The notes under the pieces are model-generated. The model saw only the letters and a program-made list of their open reading frames with translations. It made no database searches and was not told where the DNA came from. From positions 1 through 30,510 of the IMG/VR virus record IMGVR_UViG_3300027851_000093: DNA of 30,510 bases. One strand, written 5' to 3'. How positions within the stretch are numbered: the first letter of the stretch is position 1; every line of letters begins with the position of its first letter. Source of the stretch: a virus. Of the stretch, positions 2,096-30,421 are shown piece after piece. Both the position numbers and the translations under genes were made by a program.

Positions 2096-3240
2096 GCATT
2101 TGGGATTACTTCACGCCGGAAGCGGGGCAAGCGCGCCGCCAATGGCTAGAGGGGCAGGCCGATGGCTTGCTGACCTACGTGCCGCCCGAACTCCGTCCTT
2201 GGCTTGGCATTGCAAACGAGTTGAACCCCGTCACCAGCATGGAGCGGGCCGGATCGTCCGCGCGTCGTGTGGCTGACCCGTCGCTGTCGGGATGGGAACG
2301 CATGGCGGCGGTGGGGGATACGGCCAGCAACATGGCGGCGGTTGTCGCGCCGATGGTTGCGGGGGCCAAGGGCGCGGTTCCTGCGGTGCAGGCTGCGGAA
2401 GACGCGCTTATGGGCTGGTCCACGGCGGCGGGTGTGCCGGGGTTCATCGCGGATGAAGCTGGCAACTTGCGGCTCGGTGCTTCGGATGCAGTTGCCACGC
2501 GCGGCGCGCAGATCATGGACATGCTCAAGGCAGGCCGTGGCGCGGAAGTCACCGACGACATGCTGGACATGGGCGATCCGGTGGCAAACGCGCGGCTGAA
2601 CGAATGGCTGTTTAACAACTACGACCTGCCGATGGATGCGGCTTCGCGGGCAGCGCGCAAGGCGGAAATGGGCTTTGACGCTGACCTTATGCACGGCACG
2701 GATGCTATTTTCCCGGCGTTTAAATTGGGCGATGGCTCAAATACTGGCGTATCTGCCCCGGCAGTTTTCTTAACTGATAGTCGCAATGTGGCGCAGTCAT
2801 ATGGCGATAACGTAATGGACGTTTCCGCCCGGATTGAACAGCCGCTAACCTTTGACTTTGGGGGGAAATCTACAGCTTATTTTGACGGCGCGACCAGAAC
2901 CCCAAGCGACCTTGCAAAACGGGTTAGTGAAGTTGCAAGCGACGTTCGCGGCAACGCTTTAGACCCCGAAAGTGATCTTGCATATGACTTGCAGGACGTT
3001 GGCTTTGACTACCTGTGGAATACCGACATTGACGCCGCAGAAATGCGGAATGTGGTGGATAGCGCCGGATCAATGTTTGGCGGAGACGTCGCAAATAACG
3101 TCGCCGTATTTGACCCGCGAAACATCCGCCTGCGATCTGCCCGCTTCGACCCACGCCTCGCGCATCTTCGCAACCTAAGCGCGGCTGTCGCCTTCGCCCC
3201 GTTTGTCGGCCTTCTCGGCCAAGACCCCGAAGCCAACTGA
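2092..3240 (+). CDS. Phage protein with C-terminal ADP-ribosyltransferase-like (polyvalent-type) domain
   Basis: The protein has 382 residues from the ATG that overlaps the terminase stop as ATGA. Residues 1-130 are Ala/Gly-rich and start SIWDYFTPEAGQ, like proteins beside terminase genes in other podophages. Residues about 185-355 resemble the ART family of phage polyvalent proteins: a lead-in RAARKAEMGFDADLMHGT with His201-Gly-Thr, a glycine/phenylalanine strand GVSAPAVFLTD, then A-x-SYG with Tyr237, and a final strand AVFDPRNIRL near 338-347. In the family a Gln or Glu usually sits just before the final strand, and here that place seems to be Asn336, so activity is uncertain. The ART part uses more A/T-ending codons than its surroundings, suggesting separate acquisition. 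If packaged, it could be injected to modify host proteins. That role is inference. Confidence 0.7.
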   Translation: MSIWDYFTPEAGQARRQWLEGQADGLLTYVPPELRPWLGIANELNPVTSMERAGSSARRVADPSLSGWERMAAVGDTASNMAAVVAPMVAGAKGAVPAVQAAEDALMGWSTAAGVPGFIADEAGNLRLGASDAVATRGAQIMDMLKAGRGAEVTDDMLDMGDPVANARLNEWLFNNYDLPMDAASRAARKAEMGFDADLMHGTDAIFPAFKLGDGSNTGVSAPAVFLTDSRNVAQSYGDNVMDVSARIEQPLTFDFGGKSTAYFDGATRTPSDLAKRVSEVASDVRGNALDPESDLAYDLQDVGFDYLWNTDIDAAEMRNVVDSAGSMFGGDVANNVAVFDPRNIRLRSARFDPRLAHLRNLSAAVAFAPFVGLLGQDPEAN

Positions 3241-3333: not shown

Positions 3334-3947
3334 TGGCACTCGCCACCTTCGCGGACCTGAAAAGCGCCATCGCGGATTTTCTCAATCGCGATGACCTCAC
3401 GGCGGTGATCCCGTCCTTCGTCGCGCTGTGCGAAGCGGACATGAACCGCAAGCTGCGCGCAATCCCGATGGAAACCCGATCCACGGCCACGCTGGACGCG
3501 CAGTATTCCAGCCTGCCCACGGATTGGCTTGAGACGATCAGCATTCGCATCAGCGGCGCGGACCAAAGGCTCACGCTGGCATCGCTGGCCGAGATTGCCG
3601 ACCTGCGCGCATGGAACGACGACGAAGCGGGCAAGCCCACGCATTACGCGCACGTCGCGGGCGGGTTGGAACTGTATCCGACGCCGGATGATACATACAC
3701 GGCGGAACTGGTGTATTACGCCAAGCCTGCGGCCCTGTCTGCGGATGGGGATGATAACTGGATACTCACCAGCCATCCCGACGCCTACCTTTACGGGTCG
3801 CTGATGCATTCCGCGCCGTATCTGAAGGACGATCCTCGGATTTCGGTATGGGCCGAGCTTTACGCCAACGCCATCGCGTCGATCAACCAAGCCTCGCAGG
3901 ACGCCAAGCACAGCGGCACGGGGCTTCGTCTACGGTTCAAGCGATGA
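3333..3947 (+). CDS. Head-to-tail adaptor protein (SU10/gp6-like)
   Basis: The 204-aa protein is the likely adaptor ring that sits under the portal and joins the capsid to the tail. Its start, MALATFADLKSAIADFLNR, followed by a helical segment with CEADMNRKLR at about 34-43 and a beta section (LPTDWLETISIRI), is typical of podophage adaptor proteins. The phrase GGLELYPTPDDTYTAELVYYAKP around 110-132 and a C-terminal helix with HPDAYLYGSLMHSAPYLKDD near 145-165 are also characteristic. The ATG at 3333 is preferred over an in-frame GTG at 3330 because it overlaps the stop of the Cys-rich peptide. Its own stop overlaps the next start as ATGA. Confidence 0.75.
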   Translation: MALATFADLKSAIADFLNRDDLTAVIPSFVALCEADMNRKLRAIPMETRSTATLDAQYSSLPTDWLETISIRISGADQRLTLASLAEIADLRAWNDDEAGKPTHYAHVAGGLELYPTPDDTYTAELVYYAKPAALSADGDDNWILTSHPDAYLYGSLMHSAPYLKDDPRISVWAELYANAIASINQASQDAKHSGTGLRLRFKR

Positions 3948-4111
3948 CATGGACGACGCAGCCGAACCAGCCGGAAGCATGGGCCTCATGGCTTCTGCAA
4001 GACGGCCAATGGTCTGACAGCGGGTTCTGGGACGATACGCAGGTCTGGGATGACGGGCTGACGTGGGCCGAAGTGCCGAACCAATCCGAGACATGGACGC
4101 CGCAGGGGTAA
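3944..4111 (+). CDS. 55-aa tryptophan-rich small phage protein
   Basis: This is a short acidic protein with eight tryptophans in 55 residues. Two similar segments, PNQPEAW near the start and PNQSETW near the end, suggest an internal repeat. The ATG overlaps the adaptor stop as ATGA, so it is expected to be translated. No signal peptide or membrane segment is present. Its place between the adaptor and the fibre gene points to a minor virion or tail-assembly role, but no function is recognised. Confidence 0.6.
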   Translation: MTWTTQPNQPEAWASWLLQDGQWSDSGFWDDTQVWDDGLTWAEVPNQSETWTPQG

Positions 4112-4114
4112 ATC

Positions 4115-5251
4115 ATGCCGACACTCACGACGACTTACGGGTTCAGCAAGCCAACCATCGGCGGCGACGGTGACGATTGGGGCGATGACATCAATCTGAC
4201 GTTTGACATGCTGGACGACATTCTCGACGGCACGTCGCCCATCACCCCAGCGGCGGGCAATGACATCGAAATCCGTGGCACGAATGCGGCGACGAACACT
4301 GTCACGACGCTGCTGACGCTCAATTCGCAGTCATCGGGAACGCCTGCGGCTGGCATCGGCGCGGGCTTGGCTTTCGCGGCGGAAACGGCGGCGGGCAATA
4401 CCGAAGTCGGGGTTGTGCTGGAAGCTGTCACGACTGACGTGACAGGGGCAAGCGAGGACTTTGACCTCGTGATCAAGACAATGGCAGCGGGCGCGGCGGC
4501 GGCTGAGCGGTTGCGTCTGTCGTCTTCGGTGGCAACCTTCGCCACGGGCATCAACATGACTGCGGGTGGCTTGCAACGGGGCGGCGTGAATGCCTACGCT
4601 CTGCGGTCTGTCACATACCTCACCAGCGGCACGGCGGCGACCTATACCACGCCCACGGGGTGCCGTGCGCTGCGTGTGACGGCTATCGGTGCAGGTGGTG
4701 GCGGTGGCGGCGTTGACGGGCAGGGAGCAGGCACGGCAGCGGCAGGCGGTGGCGGTGGCCCCGGCGCTGAGGTCGTGAAGTTCATCACATCGCCGGAAGC
4801 GAGCTACACCTACACCATCGGCGCGGCTGGCACGGGTGGCGCAGCGGGGGCCAATGACGGCGCGGCTGGCGGCAACACGACCTTTGCGGGCGGGGCTGTA
4901 AACCTTGCTGCGAATGGCGGCGCGGGCGGTGCTGGCATCACTGGCGCTTCTGGCAACACCTCCGGCGGGGCGGGTGCTGGCGGCACGGGAACGGGCGGCG
5001 ACCTCAACATCGAAGGCAGCCGTCAAGCGCGCGCGCGCACGGTCGGGTCAACGATTTACATCGGCGGGCTTGGTGGCAGCACCCGCTTTGGCGCGGGCGG
5101 AAACTCTGGTTCGATCCTCGCCGATGGCGCGGGTCAGGCGGCGTCTGGCTATGGCTCAGGCGGCGGTGGCGCAAGCGTTGCGGGCGCGGCGACGAACTAC
5201 GCAGGCGGCGACGGCACGGGTGGCCTGATCATCGTGGAGGAATATTTCTGA
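4115..5251 (+). CDS. Tail fibre-like protein with glycine-rich C-terminal domain
   Basis: The 378-aa protein looks like a fibre or receptor-binding component. The N-terminus, TYGFSKPTIGGDGDDWGDDIN at about 6-26, is a common phage fibre attachment phrase. Residues 30-160 are beta-rich repeats of the kind seen in fibre shafts. From about 175 the typical glycine-rich domain starts with TAATYTTPTGCRALRVTAIG followed by a long Gly/Ala run (GGGGG appears twice), then SYTYTIGAAGTGG and many GGAGG units to the end. Such domains form compact Gly-rich folds at fibre tips. The stop overlaps the next gene by one base (TGATG). The beta-helix protein at 18449 is a second candidate receptor-binding protein, so this may be a shorter accessory fibre. 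Confidence 0.75.
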   Translation: MPTLTTTYGFSKPTIGGDGDDWGDDINLTFDMLDDILDGTSPITPAAGNDIEIRGTNAATNTVTTLLTLNSQSSGTPAAGIGAGLAFAAETAAGNTEVGVVLEAVTTDVTGASEDFDLVIKTMAAGAAAAERLRLSSSVATFATGINMTAGGLQRGGVNAYALRSVTYLTSGTAATYTTPTGCRALRVTAIGAGGGGGGVDGQGAGTAAAGGGGGPGAEVVKFITSPEASYTYTIGAAGTGGAAGANDGAAGGNTTFAGGAVNLAANGGAGGAGITGASGNTSGGAGAGGTGTGGDLNIEGSRQARARTVGSTIYIGGLGGSTRFGAGGNSGSILADGAGQAASGYGSGGGGASVAGAATNYAGGDGTGGLIIVEEYF

Positions 5252-18448: not shown

Positions 18449-20518
18449 ATGACGATTGCAAACGGTGAAATCGGATCATCTGTCCGCGCGAAGCTAAACC
18501 AGTCCTTTGCGGACATTGCCACGCTGTCTGCTTCGCTGTCGTCGCAGTCGTCGTCTTTGTCCTCGGTATCAAGCCGCACGACTTCGCTTGAAATCCGCGC
18601 GGCAAAGTCCATTGCCAACGTCGCCACATTGCTTGCTGACGCGGCGTTGACCTATGCGGCAGGATCAACCAATTCCGTAGCGGCGGGCGACATTATCCAG
18701 ACCCGCGCAGAAGGCTTCTCCTACGAAGTCGCGGCATCAGGTGCATCTGACCATCATGTGACTACGGCGGGGGGGATGAAGCTATACATTCTGCCGAATG
18801 GTGCGGGTGAAATTGAGTGGGGCGCTACGGGTGCCGTTTCGGGCGCTTCAAACCACGGGACACAATGGACTGTGGCTGGTGCGGCGCTTTCTCGCGCAGG
18901 CACGAAAGTTCTGCGCGTTGGGCCGGGGACGTGGCGGTTCCAATATGTGACCATGCCGGAAGGAATCGTGGTCAAATGCGCCAAGTGGCTGACTGTTTTT
19001 AAGCCTGTCAGCATTGACGACCGAGCCATCTTCACGATGGACAGCGGATCGGCTGTTTCCTTCATAGATGGCTGCACTTTTGAAGATGCGACATTTGAAG
19101 GCGGTGAGGTTACTCCAACTTTTTCGGAGCAACAACACCTTATCACCATTCACGGGGTTGATGGGGCTTCGTTCATTGGCTGCACATTCAAGGGATGGCG
19201 AGGTGATGCGCTTTATCTAGGTTCGTCCGATAGCGGCGGCACGACCGAGCGGCACAATCGAAACGTGCAGGTTTTGCGCTGCTACTTCGATGGCGTAAAC
19301 AATGAAAATCGTCAGGCTATTTCAGTTATTGACGTTGATGGTCTCTGTGTCCGTGACAACGTATTCGTGAACTGCACCAAGTCTACGATGCCCGGTGTCA
19401 TTGACCTTGAGCCGAACACTAATGCGTTCCATGTCATCAGGAACGTCTGGATCGATGGCAACAGCTTTGAAAATTGCGGGGGTAATGTCGGCACGGTTGC
19501 GATCTTTATCCCCGCAGTTGTGTCGCTACCCAAAAACATCAACATTCTGAACAACAAGGCGCGCAGCTTGGCGCTTTCTTCCGGTGGCGGCTTCTTTGGC
19601 TGTATCGTGAACCGCGTCACAACCGATACTGATGCCGATATGGCCGTGCTGGTTGAAGGCAATGATGTTCGATCTTTGGTCGGTAGGCCGTATCAGATCA
19701 TTAGCGGAAAAGGTATTCGCGCCCGACGCAATGTTTTTTCAGACGCATCACTGGCTTCGATTGTCAGCTTCAACACTGCGCTGGCTTATGCCCGCGATGT
19801 GGCCATTGCCGATACATTCATCCGATGCGGCTCCGGCGAGTCGCAAGGCATGAGTGTTTTTTCGGCAGACTATGTCGATCTGACAGGCAGCATTTTTGAT
19901 GACTGCGCCAATGGTGGGGCGGGGGCTTGTGCGATCCGCTTCAATACTGGGACGAGTTCCTACGTCAAACTTAACGACATCAAGATTGTTTCCCCGACCG
20001 GGAAAACGCTGCGGGCAGTTCAGAAGGAAGCGGGCCATACCTTTACTCCTGACACAAATCAGCACTACGGATGTCAGTGGGGGACGCTGGTCAACGCCTT
20101 TGAGGCGCATCAGAGCGACAGCCTATGGACGGTTTACACACCTGTCGCGGAGGGTGCCACGTCTGCGGGTTCTGGAACATATACTCGCCAATATGGGCGG
20201 TGGCGGCGGATCGGTAAGCAGGTCTTTTTTGAGCTTGAAATCGTCCAGTCAAGCCACACCGGAACGGGCCTTCTGGAATTGTCTCTGCCTGTGCAAGCGG
20301 ATGCGTCGTCTAACAATGAACTGAGACCTATCGCGGTAATGCTGGACGGTGTTTCGACCACTGGCGGTCAAATTGGCGCTATCAACCCCGGCGCTACTGC
20401 GGGCGGAGTGACGGGGTGCATCCGCTGCTATCACACCGCCACCGGAGCGATAGCTCAGACCGTTATTCCCGCTGGCGCTGCGACGTTCCGCGCGTCTGGC
20501 ACTTACATGATGGAGTGA
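18449..20518 (+). CDS. Tailspike protein with right-handed beta-helix
   Basis: This is a 689-aa probable receptor-binding tailspike. Residues 1-55 form a helical, Ser-rich head-binding part (SVRAKLNQSFADIATLS, then a coiled run of SSQSSSLSS). A connector AAGDIIQTRAEGFSYEVAAS followed by SGASDHHVTTAGGMKLYIL (about 83-115) is the phrase that often precedes a pectate lyase-like domain. From about 150 to 520 short strands with N/G/C turns repeat, for example FIDGCTFEDATFEGG, RNVQVLRCYFDGVNN and VWIDGNSFENCGGN, as expected of a beta-helix. The last 120 residues form a different beta domain. A depolymerase activity toward capsule or O-antigen is plausible but no catalytic residues could be fixed. 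It ends the head/spike block before the terminator at 20576. Confidence 0.75.
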   Translation: MTIANGEIGSSVRAKLNQSFADIATLSASLSSQSSSLSSVSSRTTSLEIRAAKSIANVATLLADAALTYAAGSTNSVAAGDIIQTRAEGFSYEVAASGASDHHVTTAGGMKLYILPNGAGEIEWGATGAVSGASNHGTQWTVAGAALSRAGTKVLRVGPGTWRFQYVTMPEGIVVKCAKWLTVFKPVSIDDRAIFTMDSGSAVSFIDGCTFEDATFEGGEVTPTFSEQQHLITIHGVDGASFIGCTFKGWRGDALYLGSSDSGGTTERHNRNVQVLRCYFDGVNNENRQAISVIDVDGLCVRDNVFVNCTKSTMPGVIDLEPNTNAFHVIRNVWIDGNSFENCGGNVGTVAIFIPAVVSLPKNINILNNKARSLALSSGGGFFGCIVNRVTTDTDADMAVLVEGNDVRSLVGRPYQIISGKGIRARRNVFSDASLASIVSFNTALAYARDVAIADTFIRCGSGESQGMSVFSADYVDLTGSIFDDCANGGAGACAIRFNTGTSSYVKLNDIKIVSPTGKTLRAVQKEAGHTFTPDTNQHYGCQWGTLVNAFEAHQSDSLWTVYTPVAEGATSAGSGTYTRQYGRWRRIGKQVFFELEIVQSSHTGTGLLELSLPVQADASSNNELRPIAVMLDGVSTTGGQIGAINPGATAGGVTGCIRCYHTATGAIAQTVIPAGAATFRASGTYMME

Positions 20519-20575
20519 CGGGATTGTTGCCGCACCCAAAATACTGTGTTTTATTCGGGGTAGCTTATTATGTCC

Positions 20576-20602
20576 AACGCCATCCTTCGGGGTGGCGTTT
20601 TG
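20576..20602 (+). terminator. Rho-independent terminator with TTCG tetraloop before the lysis genes
   Basis: AACGCCATCC (20576-20585) pairs with GGGTGGCGTT (20590-20599) in 10 pairs with one G-T and a stable TTCG loop, running into TTTT. It separates the tailspike from the lysis cassette. The TTTTGCGTT then CGGGG downstream and the ATGTCC just upstream parallel the element at 12182-12235. A weak promoter-like TTGTTG (20524-20529) with TGTTTT 17 bases later lies upstream. Confidence 0.85.
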
Positions 20603-20617
20603 CGTTTCGGGGATGCC

Positions 20618-20860
20618 ATGAGCCTGATTGAGAACATAGAGCGGATCGGGGTGAACCTGACCACGGCGGTATTCGGCGCGCTTGGTGCGGGATGCTTGTG
20701 GATAATCCGCAATGTTCTGACCAATCGGGAAAAAGTGGAAATTCTTGAGCGCGAAATGAGGCATCGGCAACAGCAACGCGACGAAGACAGGGCGGCGTTG
20801 TCGGACGTGCGGGAAAGCGTAAAGCGGATTGAGGGCTGGATCATGGAGCGGGGCAAATGA
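20618..20860 (+). CDS. Holin-like small membrane protein
   Basis: This 80-aa protein has one hydrophobic span at about 11-30 (IGVNLTTAVFGALGAGCLWI) and then a charged coiled-coil tail (EKVEILEREMRHRQQQRDEDR). This layout is like that of XhlA-type lysis proteins, which sit in the inner membrane and help the endolysin. The frame is open upstream to an ATG at 20570, but I chose 20618 because it follows the terminator and a CGGGG Shine-Dalgarno. Its stop overlaps the ATG of the old muramidase start (ATGA at 20857-20860), so it was originally coupled to the endolysin gene. Holin is inferred from position and topology. Confidence 0.6.
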   Translation: MSLIENIERIGVNLTTAVFGALGAGCLWIIRNVLTNREKVEILEREMRHRQQQRDEDRAALSDVRESVKRIEGWIMERGK

Positions 20861-20919
20861 AGGGCAACCTTGAGGCATCCCTGCGGCTTGTGCTGGCCCA
20901 TGAGGGCGTCACCGTCTAA
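20857..20919 (+). pseudogene. Orphaned 5' end of the muramidase gene
   Basis: An ATG in ATGA overlap with the holin-like gene opens MKGNLEASLRLVLAHEG and then runs into three foreign codons (VTV) and TAA. These 17 residues match the start of the intact muramidase at 21614 (MKSNLDAALRLVLAHEG) at 14 positions. The bases agree at only 34 of 51 positions by my hand count, mostly differing at codon third positions. This is the original gene start, cut off from the rest by the HNH insert. The break falls right after the catalytic HEG. Confidence 0.85.
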
Positions 20920-21538
20920 TTTTTTCGACTGCATCGTGCGGGTCTTCCCCAAGGTATCTAACCCTGCGGTGCAGCGATTTATAGTTGACGCCCATCAAAG
21001 CGGCGAAGTCTTTTAAGATCAGCTTTGCTCCATCGTGGTATACAAGCACGTTGTCCGTTCGCGTTCTTGCTTGTTCCGAAATCGTCGCCCATCGGCAGTT
21101 TTCCGGATTGTATCCTTTGTGCGGGTCGATCCGATCTAGCGTGTGACCCTCTGGGCATTCGCCCATGTCTTCAAGAAAGTTACTGAAGCCGTCGAGCCAT
21201 CGCTGGCACATGGTGATGCCACGCCCGCCATAAATGGGAAACTTTGGGTCTTTTGGATTGGTGCAGCGCCCCTTGGCGTGCTGGTAGCTCTTCAGCGTCT
21301 TGCTGGACACTCTGCCTACGCGGTGGCCGTGCGTAACTGATCGCTCACGAGTTACTTCTTTACGCAAGCACCCACAGCTGCGGGTGTTTCCGCTCTTCAC
21401 GTGTGAAATCTGCGTCTCGATTGACCCGCCGCATTCACACTGAAAAAGCCAGCAGGTTTTCCCATTGTGCGGTTCCAACCGTTTAACAGCGGTGAGCCGA
21501 AAGAATTTGTTTCCGGTTTCGTCAATGCGCGCGTTCAT
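20909..21538 (-). CDS. HNH homing endonuclease inserted in the muramidase gene
   Basis: This 209-aa protein is of the phage HNH type. Residues 25-60 hold a small Cys zinc site (CWLFQCECGG, then RSCGCLR). A central helix with AKGRCTNPKDPKF and YGGRGITMCQRW leads to the HNH core, where GHTLDRIDPHKGYNPENCRW near 133-152 has the conserved D-R-I-D and N-C-R-W. A C-terminal helix-turn-helix-like segment (DFAALMGVNYKSLHRRV) may read the target. The stop codon lies inside the junction with the broken muramidase start, and the gene runs against its neighbours. Codons are A/T-richer than those of the phage genes around it. Such enzymes cut uninterrupted alleles so that their own gene is copied in. Confidence 0.85.
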   Translation of the reverse strand: MNARIDETGNKFFRLTAVKRLEPHNGKTCWLFQCECGGSIETQISHVKSGNTRSCGCLRKEVTRERSVTHGHRVGRVSSKTLKSYQHAKGRCTNPKDPKFPIYGGRGITMCQRWLDGFSNFLEDMGECPEGHTLDRIDPHKGYNPENCRWATISEQARTRTDNVLVYHDGAKLILKDFAALMGVNYKSLHRRVRYLGEDPHDAVEKIRR

Positions 21539-21567
21539 ATGAACAACTCACTTTGTGGGCCTATGGA

Positions 21568-21596
21568 AGTCTACAGAAATTTAACGTGCGCTTCAA
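21568..21596 (-). promoter_or_regulatory. Candidate minus-strand promoter for the HNH gene
   Basis: Read on the minus strand, TTGAAG (21596-21591) and TAGACT (21573-21568) are exactly 17 bases apart, each matching the sigma70 hexamers at four of six positions. The HNH ATG at 21538 would be some 20-25 bases downstream of the start. This would allow the insert to be expressed against the lysis transcript. Confidence 0.4.
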
Positions 21597-21613
21597 CCTA
21601 TGATGGGGACGTG

Positions 21614-22369
21614 ATGAAATCTAATCTTGATGCAGCGTTGCGATTGGTTTTAGCGCATGAAGGCGGCTATTCGGACAATCCCGCCGATCCCGGTGGGAAA
21701 ACCAATCGCGGCGTGACGCAGCGGGTATACGATGCCTATCGAAAGCGCAAAGGGCTGGGCATCCAATCCGTCCGTGGGATTTTGGCGGATGAAGTGGCTG
21801 AGATTTACAAGCACCAGTATTGGGACGCCGTGCGGGCCGATGATCTTCCTGCGGGGCTGGATTACGCGGTGTTTGACTACGCGGTGAACAGCGGGCCGCG
21901 TCGGGCAATACAGGATCTTCAACGCACTCTTGGCGTGACGCCTGACGGGATTATCGGCTCTGTCACCCTTGCCGCGATTGGCGACGTGTTCACCGTCATC
22001 GACAGGCTATGTGAACGGCGGCTGGCGTTCCTTCGTGGGCTGAAGCATTACAAGACGTTTGGCCGTGGATGGGAACGGCGCGTGGCGGAAGTTGCCGATG
22101 CAGCGGTGGCAATGGCGCAGGGTTCGGTGGCGGTAGTGCCGACCGAGGCAACCCCGAAAGCGGAAGAAGCCCCGAAGACGGCGGCGCAATCATCGACCGT
22201 GCAAGCAAGCGCGGTGCAGATCGTGTCTGGCGCGGGGGCTGGGGTGGCGGCGATTGGCGCGCTGGATGGCGTGGCGCAGATCGTGGCGATTGCCTTTGTG
22301 GGCATCATTGTTCTGGCCGCTGCATACATCATGCGGGAACGGATTAAGAAGCTAGCGGAGGGCGTCTGA
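21614..22369 (+). CDS. N-acetylmuramidase endolysin (GH108-like) with C-terminal membrane segment
   Basis: This is the lysis enzyme that cuts peptidoglycan. Residues 12-36 contain the family signature, with His15-Glu16-Gly-Gly the catalytic site (Glu16) followed by YSDNPADPGGKTNRGVTQ. Residues 83-121 resemble the usual C-terminal PG-binding part (LDYAVFDYAVNSGPRRAI, LGVTPDGIIGSVTL). A Pro/Ala/Lys linker (about 170-200) leads to a hydrophobic C-terminus, IVAIAFVGIIVLAAAYIM near 223-240, suggesting membrane anchoring as in holin-associated muramidases. I chose the ATG at 21614 because it aligns with the old start at 20857 and has GGGGAC before it; a longer frame reaches 21467 but is not family-like. 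The first 17 codons come from the HNH insert, so the enzyme is chimeric. Stop and next ATG overlap as TGATG. Confidence 0.85.
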   Translation: MKSNLDAALRLVLAHEGGYSDNPADPGGKTNRGVTQRVYDAYRKRKGLGIQSVRGILADEVAEIYKHQYWDAVRADDLPAGLDYAVFDYAVNSGPRRAIQDLQRTLGVTPDGIIGSVTLAAIGDVFTVIDRLCERRLAFLRGLKHYKTFGRGWERRVAEVADAAVAMAQGSVAVVPTEATPKAEEAPKTAAQSSTVQASAVQIVSGAGAGVAAIGALDGVAQIVAIAFVGIIVLAAAYIMRERIKKLAEGV

Positions 22370-22596
22370 TGCATCGCCTCAAGCTATGGCTAGGCGCCGC
22401 TGTAGGGCTTGTTCTGGCCTTCGTGGGCGCGTGGGTAGCGGGAAGGCGGGAAGGGCGTCAGGAAGCCCGCACAGACGCGCTGCGGGGCGATGCCAAACGG
22501 CACGAAAGGATGAACGATGCTGAGATTGGCATTGGTGCTGCTGACGCTGACAACGTTGCTTGGTTGCGTCAATTCCACGAACGGAACAGCCGTTGA
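22369..22596 (+). CDS. Rz-like inner-membrane spanin subunit (short)
   Basis: This 75-aa protein has an N-terminal membrane anchor (LWLGAAVGLVLAFVGAWVAG, residues 6-25) and a charged helical tail (RREGRQEARTDALRGDAKRH). It starts inside the endolysin stop and partly encloses the lipoprotein gene at 22517 in another frame, the classic Rz/Rz1 arrangement. Spanins fuse inner and outer membranes at the end of lysis. At 75 aa the periplasmic part is short for an Rz protein, so the call rests on context. Confidence 0.6.
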   Translation: MHRLKLWLGAAVGLVLAFVGAWVAGRREGRQEARTDALRGDAKRHERMNDAEIGIGAADADNVAWLRQFHERNSR

Positions 22597-24709: not shown

Positions 24710-25726
24710 TCAAAATTCACGTTCCGGTCTTGTTCTGTTCCGCGCCTCTTGTGCTTCCTTGGCCCGTGCCTTCTGCATGGCTGGCCCCGCATAAAGTTTG
24801 ATCATCGCCTGCCCCGAATGGCCCGTGATGGCGCGCACGTGGTCGGCGGTCATCCCCGGCAAACTGGCAATCTCAGACGCCGCCGAATGGCGCAGCGCGT
24901 GAATGTCGTAAGCCTCGGCCCCAATGGCCCGTCGAAGGGCCATCATGTTCTTCCACGCGAGATTGTAAGACACGCGCAGCCCGTTATCCTGCGCGACGAT
25001 GAACAGCCCCTTGCGCGGCGTTGCGGCGAGGATAGCCCGCAGTCGCGCGGTTAGGGGAATGTAGATCGGGTGAGGCTTCTTCCCCTTAGTCTTGGCAGGG
25101 ATGATGGTGATGCCGTCCGCGTCCATATCGCTCCACCGCATCGACAGCACGTCATTCACCCGCTGGCCCGTGCCGATCAGCATTTCGAACAGCAATAGGT
25201 CACGGCCTTTTGCTGTCGCGCGGGCGGCGTCAATCAGATCCTGCGGCCACGGGTGGCGCGTCTTGCCTGTCGGTTCCAGCTTCGCCGCGACGATGGCGGG
25301 GTTTGTCTTGGCCCAATCATTTGCCTGCGCCCATGTGTAGAGCGACGACAGGCACCCTATTTTGCGGTTCGCATCGGTCGGCTTGTCGGCCAGCGCGTCC
25401 CGCATGGCATTGACATGGCGCACCGTGATGCTGTCAGGGTTCAAATGCCCGATTTTCTCGGCGAAGTATTCCAGATGCCGCGTGTATGACTTGCGCGTGT
25501 TGCTTGCCAGCTTCGCCCATTGCGGTGACTTGCGGTAAGCCTCGATAACCTTGGATATGGTCTTGGCCGGTGCCACCACATCGCCGCGCATGTGCTTGGC
25601 GTATTCCACCGCAAATTCAGCCGTGCCGGGGCGCGAGTGCATCCGCGCGCAGATGCCCCCTCGCACGAAATACAGGTATCCCTTGCGGCCCTTGGCATAG
25701 ACGTGCGGGGGAAGTCCGCGCCTCAC
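24710..25726 (-). CDS. int: Tyrosine-recombinase integrase
   Basis: This 338-aa enzyme integrates the phage into the host chromosome. The C-terminal catalytic domain shows Arg189 in GTGQRVNDVL, a Lys in TKGKKP (about 214-217), His276-x-x-Arg279 in HALRHSAAS, His303 in TGHSGQ and the nucleophile Tyr312 in IKLYAG. The N-terminal part has an arm-binding-type strand (GYLYFVRGG) and a core-binding helical domain (SYTRHLEYFAEKIG). I prefer the GTG at 25724-25726, which overlaps the previous stop (GTGA) and has GGAGG 5 bases before it, to the in-frame TTG four codons upstream. It is the last gene of a long minus-strand operon rather than having its own visible promoter. Confidence 0.9.
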   Translation of the reverse strand: MRRGLPPHVYAKGRKGYLYFVRGGICARMHSRPGTAEFAVEYAKHMRGDVVAPAKTISKVIEAYRKSPQWAKLASNTRKSYTRHLEYFAEKIGHLNPDSITVRHVNAMRDALADKPTDANRKIGCLSSLYTWAQANDWAKTNPAIVAAKLEPTGKTRHPWPQDLIDAARATAKGRDLLLFEMLIGTGQRVNDVLSMRWSDMDADGITIIPAKTKGKKPHPIYIPLTARLRAILAATPRKGLFIVAQDNGLRVSYNLAWKNMMALRRAIGAEAYDIHALRHSAASEIASLPGMTADHVRAITGHSGQAMIKLYAGPAMQKARAKEAQEARNRTRPEREF

Positions 25727-25896
25727 TTGCGCCTCCAATCAATCAGGTCTGCGGTATCGCCCTTTGCCTCTGGGGCGGGCTTTACGTCAATCGTGCCATC
25801 TGGTGCTATGGTGACAGCGCACCCTGCCGCGACCCAATCCTTTACCATGCGATGCAGCACGTCAGAGCGGATGCCTAATGGCGTTTGCTTACCCAT
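25723..25896 (-). CDS. 57-aa protein upstream of integrase, possible excisionase
   Basis: The chosen ATG at 25894-25896 gives a 57-aa protein; the longer frame to 25998 is read from inside the neighbouring gene. It has a helix (IRSDVLHRMVKDWVAAG) and a strand pair VTIAPDGTIDVKP. Small proteins of this form are common next to int in Rhodobacterales phages, and an excisionase or other DNA-binding role is likely but unproven. The start overlaps the previous gene by 8 bases and the stop overlaps int by 4. Confidence 0.5.
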   Translation of the reverse strand: MGKQTPLGIRSDVLHRMVKDWVAAGCAVTIAPDGTIDVKPAPEAKGDTADLIDWRRK

Positions 25897-27468: not shown

Positions 27469-27821
27469 CATTTCCCCCACGGGTTATTCCACTCATTTGC
27501 AAGCATGTCGCGGACTACGGGCAGATAATCGGTGTCCATGCCGAATGTGCGTTCCCATTCGGCCTTGTTCGTGTGTATTCCCGCTGCGCCGCGATGGTGC
27601 GGATAGCAGAGCGGGATGGTTTCAAAGTCGCTGGCTTTGCGCTGGCCGAACCGCCCGCTGATGCAATGATGGACTTCAACCGGATGCGCCCCACAGCATA
27701 CGCAGGGCAGGGCGGCGACACGGGCCATGTGTTCCCGTGCGGCCTTGGTTCCCCGCGCGGGCTTGGGCTGCTTTAGCCCCATCGGCGGCTTGCCCGCGAG
27801 ATTGCCGGGGCGCGCGTTCAT
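27468..27821 (-). CDS. Ref-like RecA-dependent nuclease (HNH fold)
   Basis: This 117-aa protein fits the Ref family, known from phage P1, which cuts DNA at RecA-held displacement loops. After a basic N-terminus it has Cys40-x2-Cys43, then His51-His52 in VEVHHCISGRFGQRKASD, and PLCYPHHRGA with Cys72 and His75-His76, the expected zinc/catalytic arrangement. The final third reads EWERTFGMD, also family-like. The gene start overlaps the stop of the inserted HNH gene (ATGA), and before that insertion it would have directly followed ninB. Its function fits the recombination operon. Confidence 0.75.
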   Translation of the reverse strand: MNARPGNLAGKPPMGLKQPKPARGTKAAREHMARVAALPCVCCGAHPVEVHHCISGRFGQRKASDFETIPLCYPHHRGAAGIHTNKAEWERTFGMDTDYLPVVRDMLANEWNNPWGK

Positions 27822-27826
27822 GCGGC
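27818..27826. repeat. Direct repeat at the downstream end of the HNH-AP2 insert (TCATGCGGC)
   Basis: TCATGCGGC at 27818-27826 is identical to 28348-28356, exactly 530 bases apart, and on the minus strand reads GCCGCATGA. The outer GGG-A/G-A/G context (GGGAGG against GGGAAA before GCCGC) also matches partly. The repeats include the last codons and stop of each upstream gene and the ATG of the next. Confidence 0.8.
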
Positions 27827-28351
27827 CCTCCCATGATTTTGGTGATAGCCGTGCTGTTTTTCAGCTTCCTTTCTGGCGGCAACGGCGGCTTCAAACGAGT
27901 GAAACACGCCTAGGTAAATGTTGCCCGTGTCCGTCCCGATGTATGCGCGCCAACGTCCCGGCAAGTGTTCTGAAACACCATTTACGCCCGTGCGGTTCTT
28001 CGCGGACCGTTTACGGTTTCGGCAGTTTTCTTTTCGGCTAACAACGCGGAGGTTTTCAATCCTGTTGTCATCACGCCGACCATTGATGTGGTCAATGTCG
28101 CCGTTAGGCCAGCATCCGTAGAATAAAAGCCAAGCAACTTGATGGGCGCGGTGGCACTTTCGGAGTATCATTCCAGAGCGATACCCGTTCGCATTTACGC
28201 GAAAGGCTTCCCGCCCCGCATATCTATTGTTCCAGCGGATCATTTCCCCATCAGACTTAAAGAAGTCTCTGGGTCTTTTTGACCAGTAAAGCTTCCCAGT
28301 CGTCGGCTCGTAAGTGAGCAATGTCCGGTAAGTTTCAATTTCCCAGATCAT
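27818..28351 (-). CDS. HNH homing endonuclease with AP2 DNA-binding domain
   Basis: This 177-aa protein starts at the ATG at 28349-28351, which overlaps the ninB stop. The first 60 residues are a small beta domain with FRVNANGYRSGMIL. The HNH core follows, with RAHQVAWLLFYG and DIDHINGRRDDNRIENLR near 86-103. Residues about 118-165 form an AP2-type DNA-binding domain (NRTGVNGVSEHLPGRW, then YLGVFHSFEAAVAARKEAE). Such free-standing proteins are homing endonucleases. The gene splits the ninB-ref pair but has ATGA overlaps on both sides and 9-bp repeats at its ends, so coupling is kept. Codons are A/T-richer than its neighbours, supporting recent arrival. Confidence 0.88.
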   Translation of the reverse strand: MIWEIETYRTLLTYEPTTGKLYWSKRPRDFFKSDGEMIRWNNRYAGREAFRVNANGYRSGMILRKCHRAHQVAWLLFYGCWPNGDIDHINGRRDDNRIENLRVVSRKENCRNRKRSAKNRTGVNGVSEHLPGRWRAYIGTDTGNIYLGVFHSFEAAVAARKEAEKQHGYHQNHGRAA

Positions 28352-28356
28352 GCGGC
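28348..28356. repeat. Direct repeat at the upstream end of the HNH-AP2 insert (TCATGCGGC)
   Basis: This is the partner of the repeat at 27818-27826, and it carries the ninB stop and the HNH start. Removal of the 530 bases between the two copies would restore a ninB-ref junction with one ATGA overlap. Confidence 0.8.
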
Positions 28357-28728
28357 TTTCCCTAGGGCTATGCCGTGACGGGCGGCGTATTCGTGGATGC
28401 ATTCGATCAGATCGGCCATTTGCGCCTTCGTTAGCTTTGATGAGCGGAAACCAATCGGAAACGGGCCAGACCCGTCCAATCCATCAGCGAAGCGCACTTG
28501 ATGCCCAACGAGGTGCATGAAGGCGCACTTCCATGTTTCCGGCGTCCAGTTGCGCCCTTCTGGCTTTGCCATGCTAATAGTCGTCAGCAATTGCCAAAGC
28601 AGGCTGTTCTGGTCTACCGTTCGCTTGGGCGGGGCGATGGTCAGCACCGCACCGATCGGCGCGGCGTCAACCAGCTTGTGTGCCTGATCGCGGCGATAGC
28701 GGCTGTCGAGGATCAGCGTTTGCGTCAC
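28348..28728 (-). CDS. ninB: NinB-like recombination protein (lambda Orf family)
   Basis: This 126-aa protein matches the NinB/Orf family, which helps load annealing proteins or RecA onto single-stranded DNA. It has KRTVDQNSLLWQLLTTIS near residues 35-52, where the DQN-LLW phrase is the family mark, then WTPETWKCAFMHLVG near 61-75 and SSKLTKAQMADLIECIHEYA near 95-114. I chose the GTG at 28726-28728, overlapping the previous stop (GTGA), over the in-frame upstream start at 28758. It couples directly to the inserted HNH gene. Confidence 0.85.
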   Translation of the reverse strand: MTQTLILDSRYRRDQAHKLVDAAPIGAVLTIAPPKRTVDQNSLLWQLLTTISMAKPEGRNWTPETWKCAFMHLVGHQVRFADGLDGSGPFPIGFRSSKLTKAQMADLIECIHEYAARHGIALGKAA

Positions 28729-28916: not shown

Positions 28917-29188
28917 TACAGCACCTGCGGGGCGAAGGGTATGTCTTCGCCAAGGTCGGCGTTGCCGCGCCCGCCTGCGCCGTAGCCGGACTGTTGCGAC
29001 TGCTGGCGTTCCTCGCGCGGGGGCGACATCAGCACCATCACGCGCCCGTCAGCGTCGGGCAGGGGAAGCGCGTCAAACACAAGCTGAAAGCCGTCGCCGT
29101 TCTTCGTGGGAAAGGCGCTGCCCACGTTGATCCAGAATGTTTTGTCATTGCGCTTGCGGGGCGATGTGAGCGTGTAGCGGGTGGTCAT
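28916..29188 (-). CDS. 90-aa SSB-like small protein
   Basis: This protein starts MTTRYTLTSPRKRNDKTFWI and then has VGSAFPTKNGDGFQLVFDAL followed by PLPDADGRVMVLMSPP, the core of a small beta protein I recall from Rhodobacterales phages. A Gln/Gly-rich linker leads to GEDIPFAPQVL, which resembles the acidic tip (DDIPF) by which single-strand DNA-binding proteins recruit partners, although here it is seven residues short of the end. With ERF, exonuclease and NinB beside it, a single-strand DNA-binding role is a reasonable guess. It overlaps the exonuclease gene by ATGA. Confidence 0.55.
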   Translation of the reverse strand: MTTRYTLTSPRKRNDKTFWINVGSAFPTKNGDGFQLVFDALPLPDADGRVMVLMSPPREERQQSQQSGYGAGGRGNADLGEDIPFAPQVL

Positions 29189-29826
29189 GCGGCTTGCTCC
29201 ATGTTGTAGCGTGTGCGAAGGGCTTCAACCTTCGCGTCAAGTTCGTTTAGAAAGGCGCGGATTTCGCTTTCCATTTCGGCAATGAAAGCGTCGTCGCGGT
29301 GAACGCGGGAAACCCAAATCTGCATTGCGTCTGGCAGGCGTGGATCAAAGCTAACGAAGTCGCACCACGCGCGGCCAGTGCAGGCCATTTGCGCCTGCAT
29401 CTGCGTGACGTATTTCCCCGGCACAGTTTCCGTCAGCAGCGTTTCAATGTGCGTCGAGGTGTTTGGGCATTTGATTTCCACAAGCCCATCGTCAGCCACC
29501 AGCCCGTCAGGCGATGCGCCAAAATGCTGGATTGCGCCGTGCAGGACAAAGCCCGTCTCGATCACAGGGCGATCCATCAGTATTTCATAGGCGGCGCGGG
29601 CCTGCGGCTCAGTGTCCGTTCCCCACTGCATCGCGGCGTTGCTAAACCGATCCGCTTGCTGTCCGGTCAGGCGTTCAACCACTAGTTCTGCCATGTAGTT
29701 GGCGCGGCTGGCGCTGTATCCTGTCTTGGTCTTTGCCATCAGATCGGCAACGCGCGACCCGGTGACTTTGCCGAGGCGGGCGGCAAACCACGCCTCGGTG
29801 CGCTGATCGTCACTGAGCGGCAACAT
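29185..29826 (-). CDS. YqaJ/lambda-type recombination exonuclease
   Basis: This 213-aa enzyme should degrade one DNA strand to leave single strands for annealing. Motifs are the helix TEAWFAARLGKVTGSR at 10-25, GTDTEPQARAAYE near 69-81, then GASPDGLVADDGLVEIKCPN near 103-122, where the Asp and the E-x-K give the metal site, and QMQAQMACTGRAWCDFVSFD at 142-161. These are the standard elements of the YqaJ viral recombinase fold. It follows the ERF gene with a 17-base overlap, forming an annealing protein plus exonuclease pair. Confidence 0.88.
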   Translation of the reverse strand: MLPLSDDQRTEAWFAARLGKVTGSRVADLMAKTKTGYSASRANYMAELVVERLTGQQADRFSNAAMQWGTDTEPQARAAYEILMDRPVIETGFVLHGAIQHFGASPDGLVADDGLVEIKCPNTSTHIETLLTETVPGKYVTQMQAQMACTGRAWCDFVSFDPRLPDAMQIWVSRVHRDDAFIAEMESEIRAFLNELDAKVEALRTRYNMEQAA

Positions 29827-30421
29827 CGGTTGCCTCCATCATCTGCGCGGCCTTCTTGCGAAGCTGCGCCATCGCGCGATCCCATTGCTGGACATTCAAT
29901 TCTTCCAGCGTCTTCGCGCCAAGCCATTGGGCTAGCTTGGCCGCGTCTGTCCCCGTCTGTTCGATCAGATCATTCATCGCGATGAACTGATCCGCGTTGA
30001 TGTTCGGCGCGCGGACAGGCTCAGTGACAACTGGCGCGGCCTTGGAGGCGGCGTTGCCATCATCATCTTCGGGGGCGATGCCCGTGAGGCTTTCAACGCC
30101 GATGCGCTTGGCGTAGGTGGTGGCGGACTTCATGCCTTGCATGTTGTTGCGATCCACGATCAGCGGCACGTCGCAGTGAATGTGCGTGTCGGTCATGCCA
30201 TGCGAAAGCGTGGTCCGCATCATCAGGCCGTGTTCATCTCGGATCATGCTGTGATACATGGCGATGCCGTTTGCCGAGAGGGCAGGGACAACGACAGCCA
30301 CCACATCGGCAAGGTCGGCATACTTGGACTTGAAGGCCGGATTGACCGCGCCCTTGACGACCGTTCCCATGCCAGCCTGAGCGGCGGCAAGCGCGGCGTA
30401 AATGTTTTTGTGTTCGGTCAT
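29810..30421 (-). CDS. erf: ERF-family single-strand annealing protein
   Basis: This 203-aa protein matches ERF, which anneals complementary single strands during phage recombination. The family phrases are seen in order: NIYAALAAAQAGMG, NPAFKSKYADLADVV near 27-41, LSANGIAMYHSM near 48-59, TTLSHGM near 70-76, then MKSATTYAKRIGVESLTGIA near 97-116 and PEDDDGN at 117-123. The rest is a linker and a C-terminal helical tail (AKLAQWLGAKTLEELNVQQW). The start overlaps the previous gene as ATGA. Confidence 0.9.
   Translation of the reverse strand: MTEHKNIYAALAAAQAGMGTVVKGAVNPAFKSKYADLADVVAVVVPALSANGIAMYHSMIRDEHGLMMRTTLSHGMTDTHIHCDVPLIVDRNNMQGMKSATTYAKRIGVESLTGIAPEDDDGNAASKAAPVVTEPVRAPNINADQFIAMNDLIEQTGTDAAKLAQWLGAKTLEELNVQQWDRAMAQLRKKAAQMMEATDVAAQ

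Follow-up and report, generated by a model that had tools for sequence, protein, structure and literature searches.

How can an endonuclease gene sit inside a phage muramidase gene and leave that gene whole? As a rule, homing genes can occupy essential genes only by means of a self-splicing intron or an intein. The question is raised by a locus in a 30.5 kb metagenomic phage record (IMGVR_UViG_3300027851_000093) with an SU10-type portal, and the whole analyzed stretch of 30,510 nucleotides is referred to here as the window. The lysis cassette of the window is located downstream of the tail genes and consists of a holin-like gene, a muramidase stub, an antisense HNH gene, a GH108 muramidase gene and an Rz-like spanin gene. 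The holin-like gene (20570-20860, plus strand) encodes one predicted membrane segment followed by a coiled coil and has no match in Pfam, PHROG or NCBIfam. Elsewhere in the window, the minus strand encodes an integrase (phrog_1; 24713-25738) and a RecE-like exonuclease with an Erf-like annealing protein (29188-30421), indicating that the phage carries its own recombination genes and is probably temperate. A second HNH gene on the minus strand (27821-28402) belongs to a different family (phrog_99, E 5.8e-60).

The stub (20857-20919, plus strand) starts within the ATGA at 20857-20860, where it overlaps the end of the holin-like reading frame. Its translation from the ATG at 20857 begins with MKGNLEASLRLVLAHEG, the product of 17 muramidase codons (20857-20907), which are followed by VTV and a TAA stop codon (20917-20919). 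The left cut is exact: the last muramidase codon of the stub is codon 17, which encodes the Gly of HEG, and an earlier note on this DNA had placed the break there. The codon usage of the stub is phage-like (z +0.79). Moreover, in the portal relatives L118, L125 and L134 (65-72% portal identity), the order of holin-like gene, ATGA and lysin is kept in all three, and the 4-base overlap is spelled AAATGAAG in L134, as in the window. The stub thus sits exactly at the lysin start of the lineage. The lysins found at this position are amidases in L118 and L125 and a GH24 protein in L134, as named from sequence, and the lysin of the window belongs to yet another family. Judged by codon usage and the conserved operon junction, the stub is the native muramidase start, now displaced.

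The HNH endonuclease gene (20909-21538, minus strand) has its stop codon at the stub junction and exhibits non-native codon usage (z -4.69). It encodes a 209-residue protein that matches the phrog_374 profile over residues 1-206 (E 1.5e-61). In the AlphaFold model of the protein (mean pLDDT 89), the N-terminal part is rich in beta strands and contains cysteines, the core has a beta-beta-alpha fold and the C-terminal region is helical. Neither a sequence search nor Foldseek found anything significant among solved structures, and the best structural match of the model, PacI, is weak (VIA-align Z 5.7, rmsd 2.8, 74 residues). The protein retains 18 of the 20 columns that are conserved at 95% or more in the family. 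It keeps R136, N147, W150 and Q156, and R136, N147 and Q156 are invariant or nearly so among relatives. Departures from the family (124 relatives) are found at N159 (98%), which is replaced by Thr, and at C32 (97%), which is replaced by Phe. These two substitutions suggest that the present copy may be inactive or losing activity. Loss of activity is frequent in homing genes after fixation.

A complete muramidase gene (21614-22369, plus strand) stands on the other side of the HNH gene, and the two genes diverge from a 75-base leader (21539-21613, plus strand) with a GC content of 45% and a codon-type z of -3.8. A GGGG five bases ahead of the muramidase ATG may be the ribosome site. The muramidase consists of 251 residues with a C-terminal hydrophobic segment, and its GH108 domain is complete (PF05838, E 1.1e-28, profile positions 2-85 of 85, HEGG present); its best relative among solved structures is 7dnp (E 1.3e-42). 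Codons 1-17 of the gene (21614-21664, plus strand) form the replacement start and are recoded. New codons 2-17 have a z of -3.29, in the lowest 0.4% of 5279 phage windows of 16 codons each. The native body (codons 18-156) is near the phage codon usage (z -1.0). Farther downstream, the C-terminal segment (22166-22366) shares 66-71% identity with the same-locus lysins of L134 (15900-16100) and allied phages. Those lysins are of the GH24 type, so catalytic domains have been swapped on a common C-terminus. The sequence agrees with the arrangement that the earlier note had described, in which a stub in the ATGA overlap ends in three foreign codons and a stop, an antisense HNH gene follows and an intact muramidase begins at 21614.

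The foreign-looking HNH gene, leader and new codons lie between a native stub and a native body, which indicates that an HNH-bearing segment was imported and brought a new 5' end with it. A codon-likelihood scan places the right end of this tract at codon 13-17, GC3 alone places it at codon 5-33, and the right boundary, as estimated from composition only, is consistent with codon 17. Replacement of the muramidase 5' end by a foreign HNH-carrying segment is well supported. The import of a new N-terminus, which the earlier note had proposed, stands to the extent that codon usage, the GH108 match and the conserved junction point to a foreign 5' end that came with the HNH gene, a displaced old end and a complete gene.

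What process delivered the segment? We consider it fairly probable that a terminus-replacing homing insertion produced the ~757-base segment at 20908-21664, which comprises the HNH gene, the leader and recoded codons 1-17. The donor would be a phage with an HNH gene just 5' of a related GH108 muramidase gene, and its HNH enzyme would break the recipient muramidase gene at or near the HEG/G codons. Repair would be templated by the donor. Homology on the body side would connect the donor muramidase start with the recipient body, and at the opposite junction the broken end at recipient codon 17 would be linked to the 3' terminus of the HNH gene. The outcome would be a whole muramidase gene with its own start signal and the old 17 codons left as a stub. 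The native site would be absent at both junctions: the stub is cut off from its downstream half, and in the new start the upstream half is spelled differently. The carrier would thereby escape cutting by its own enzyme, and loss of the element by recombination between the two starts would be hindered by their low DNA identity. For further spread, the stub and the holin gene on the left and the muramidase body on the right could serve as homology arms. We infer the cutting, the direction of repair, the immunity and the further mobility.

The earlier note had pointed to a conserved functional site as the target of the enzyme. The Glu of HEG, the catalytic residue of the GH108 family, is identical in 98% of 66 homologues. 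The HEG/G codons are indeed conserved, yet they are not the top-conserved 21-base stretch of the gene, given that codons 81-94 are more conserved.

Loci with an HNH gene 5' of a lysin gene represent the expected kind of donor. The Pseudomonas phages D3, PSA04 and phi297 carry another phrog_374 HNH gene (38.5% identity) just 5' of the lysin gene, in the same divergent arrangement as in the window. Unlike the window, these phages carry a lambda-R-type lysin, and D3 has no displaced lysin start on the far side of its HNH gene. Among GH108 loci, phage Pam1 contains an HNH gene of the PF01844 type (1776-2492) followed after 8 bp by a GH108 lysin gene (2501-3010) on the same strand. A Pseudochelatococcus chromosome locus, probably a prophage, contains an HNH_3 gene (3376-3927) followed after about 64 bp by a GH108 lysin gene (3992-4786), also on the same strand. 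With the window included, HNH genes of three families thus lie directly 5' of the lysin gene in at least 3 of 83 non-identical GH108 loci, which is a minimum figure given that just three HNH queries were used. The Pam1 gene was ruled out as the same element by its different HNH family, its same-strand orientation and the lack of a stub. HNH-family loci were collected using the consensus protein of the HNH alignment as the query. A coding duplication across the HNH gene was found in 1 of 113 unique flank pairs, and that one, counted in, is the window locus. The other high-scoring flank pairs proved to be low-complexity or out-of-frame matches and provided no second case. A donor search using the DNA of the leader and the new start found no match in phage records.

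The structure predicted by homing is also predicted by mosaic replacement, in which ordinary phage recombination fused a cassette of HNH and lysin genes with the resident operon inside the conserved HEG codons and the HNH gene was a passenger. The RecE-like and Erf-like genes of the window are in keeping with such an event, as are the HNH-lysin neighborhoods at other loci and the modularity of lysins in this phage group. However, the foreign tract apparently stops inside codons 1-17 or directly behind them, and codon 17 is also the position of the left cut. Mosaic replacement needs two independent coincidences to account for these ends, whereas one break at codon 17 explains both. We regard mosaic replacement without homing as unlikely, albeit with a substantial residual chance.

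The relationship between the two starts bears on a second explanation, in which the muramidase start was duplicated locally (for example, by slippage or repair), the HNH gene landed between the copies and the copies then diverged. The stub and the new start match at 14 of 17 residues and 34 of 51 bases, with 5, 1 and 11 mismatches at the first, second and third codon positions, respectively; the hand counts in the earlier note were exact. Their local alignment scores 71 (BLOSUM62), and the 113 mismatched flank controls reach 49 at most. Both starts contain Leu5, which is present in 2% of homologues, and this shared rare residue is what a local duplication would leave. However, the 17 base differences are accompanied by only three residue changes although one copy is dead, and when one copy was allowed to drift freely in simulation, three or fewer residue changes were reached in 0 of 1000 runs. 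Local duplication with one drifting copy is thus excluded, as the earlier note had argued from the base changes. Moreover, the non-native codons are found in the live copy, not in the dead stub. Local duplication is very improbable. The divergence of the two starts, as their sequences indicate, predates the insertion, and the shared Leu5 suggests that the new start was probably derived from a rather closely related muramidase in a phage whose codon preferences differ.

The earlier note had proposed a comparison with related phages that carry an uninterrupted allele, and this comparison yielded no close allele. Searches of viral contigs, genomes and phage records and a search via the portal protein turned up nothing beyond distant homologues and relatives with a different lysin, and no muramidase at more than 60% identity was found in viral contigs. 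The sole other contig found of the same phage (100% portal identity) ends short of the region. Since the source is a metagenomic virus record, an assembly chimera of two phage variants deserves attention. The identical runs between the two starts are short, making a repeat-driven misjoin at the left junction unlikely, and the reading frames end and start sensibly on both sides. We assign little chance to a chimera. The idea that the stub and the downstream gene make up one protein, either as two subunits (like NrdA split by mobE) or by splicing, draws on the known splitting of phage genes by HNH insertions (PMC2988022) and is scarcely credible here. The downstream gene lacks nothing and contains HEGG, an Rfam search of 20500-22400 with E up to 1 gave no match to an intron or any other RNA family, and a protein made from the stub plus the downstream reading frame would contain residues 1-17 twice.

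The replacement start exhibits a further feature. A perfect 12-bp inverted repeat (21640-21651 and 21698-21709, plus strand; 17 bp with G-U pairs) pairs the recoded start with codons 29-32, and its loop includes the split point between codons 17 and 18. It is the sole perfect inverted repeat of at least 11 bp with a loop of up to 80 nt in the whole window. The old start pairs over 8 bp only, and none of 84 homologues exceeds 10 bp. When these 17 residues are spelled with random synonymous codons, the repeat arises in about 0.05-0.1% of draws, and the RNA fold of the repeat stretch has a z of -2.7. The window-wide chance expectation is about 0.15 such repeats by hand calculation, a value to be read in light of the repeat having been spotted after the fact. 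The repeat may be a product of chance, a hairpin inherited from the donor or a functional element. If it was inherited from the donor, the foreign tract would end near codon 32-34. A role as a terminator or as a block of the ribosome site is unsupported because the repeat lies within the coding region and leaves the start codon uncovered.

Homing with replacement of a gene end has precedents outside phages. WHO elements in FBA1 of Torulaspora and Lachancea yeasts have been shown experimentally to involve both cleavage and resistance (Coughlan et al. 2020, PMC7282813). As proposed for the window, the WHO endonuclease gene carries the replacement end of its target, homing leaves the target gene whole and resistant, and what used to be its end persists as a displaced fragment (PMC7282813). 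Unlike the window, with its 5' end, HNH enzyme and phage genome, WHO replaces the 3' end using an intein-derived LAGLIDADG enzyme plus a zinc finger in a yeast chromosome. Fungal mitochondrial mORFs provide foreign C-termini to atp6, atp9, cox2 and nad3, with Allomyces atp6 as the first case (Beaudet et al. 2013, PMC3630166). They likewise pair a mobile endonuclease reading frame with a foreign host-gene end whose divergence is mainly synonymous, and the native end remains downstream (PMC3630166). The mORF atp6 copies share 63.5% DNA and 91% protein identity (PMC3630166), compared with 67% and 82% for the two starts in the window. The mORFs differ from the window in acting at the 3' end, in using LAGLIDADG or GIY-YIG enzymes, in their mitochondrial location and in the native uninterrupted alleles at hand for comparison (PMC3630166). 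The window shares with WHO and mORF loci an endonuclease gene beside a complete target and a target end that differs from the displaced native copy; by codon usage and the conserved operon junction, the replacement end is foreign and the displaced end native.

Free-standing T4-type homing endonucleases such as SegF and MobE resemble the window gene as phage homing genes that lie outside introns, beside or inside an essential gene, with insertions reported in functionally critical regions (PMC2988022). These insertions split the host gene into two coding regions, and gene-end replacement is absent from the excerpted part of that account (PMC2988022). The open-access literature searched yielded no description of a phage element that replaces a gene end. 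Homing as the cause of the insertion and immunity by recoding are likely. The intronless placement of a homing gene inside a gene, as put forward in the earlier note, agrees with the lack of an Rfam intron, but the idea is not new in principle, given the 3' end replacements by WHO and mORFs.

A broader proposal, which we put forward tentatively and at somewhat less than even confidence, is that the window contains a new kind of phage homing element, in which an HNH gene carries the recoded 5' end of its target. Each insertion of such an element would re-found the start of the target gene, give immunity and discard the old start. The inverted repeat may belong to this element, either through re-founded lysin regulation or as a trace of codon writing. 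WHO and mORFs constitute a third way, the replacement of a gene end, for a homing gene to occupy an essential gene. If the proposal is true, the HNH-borne 5' end version would represent an independent origin of end replacement in bacterial viruses, and the 51 bp of replaced coding DNA would make it a very small testable system. It would also suggest one source of the mosaic lysin genes of phages.
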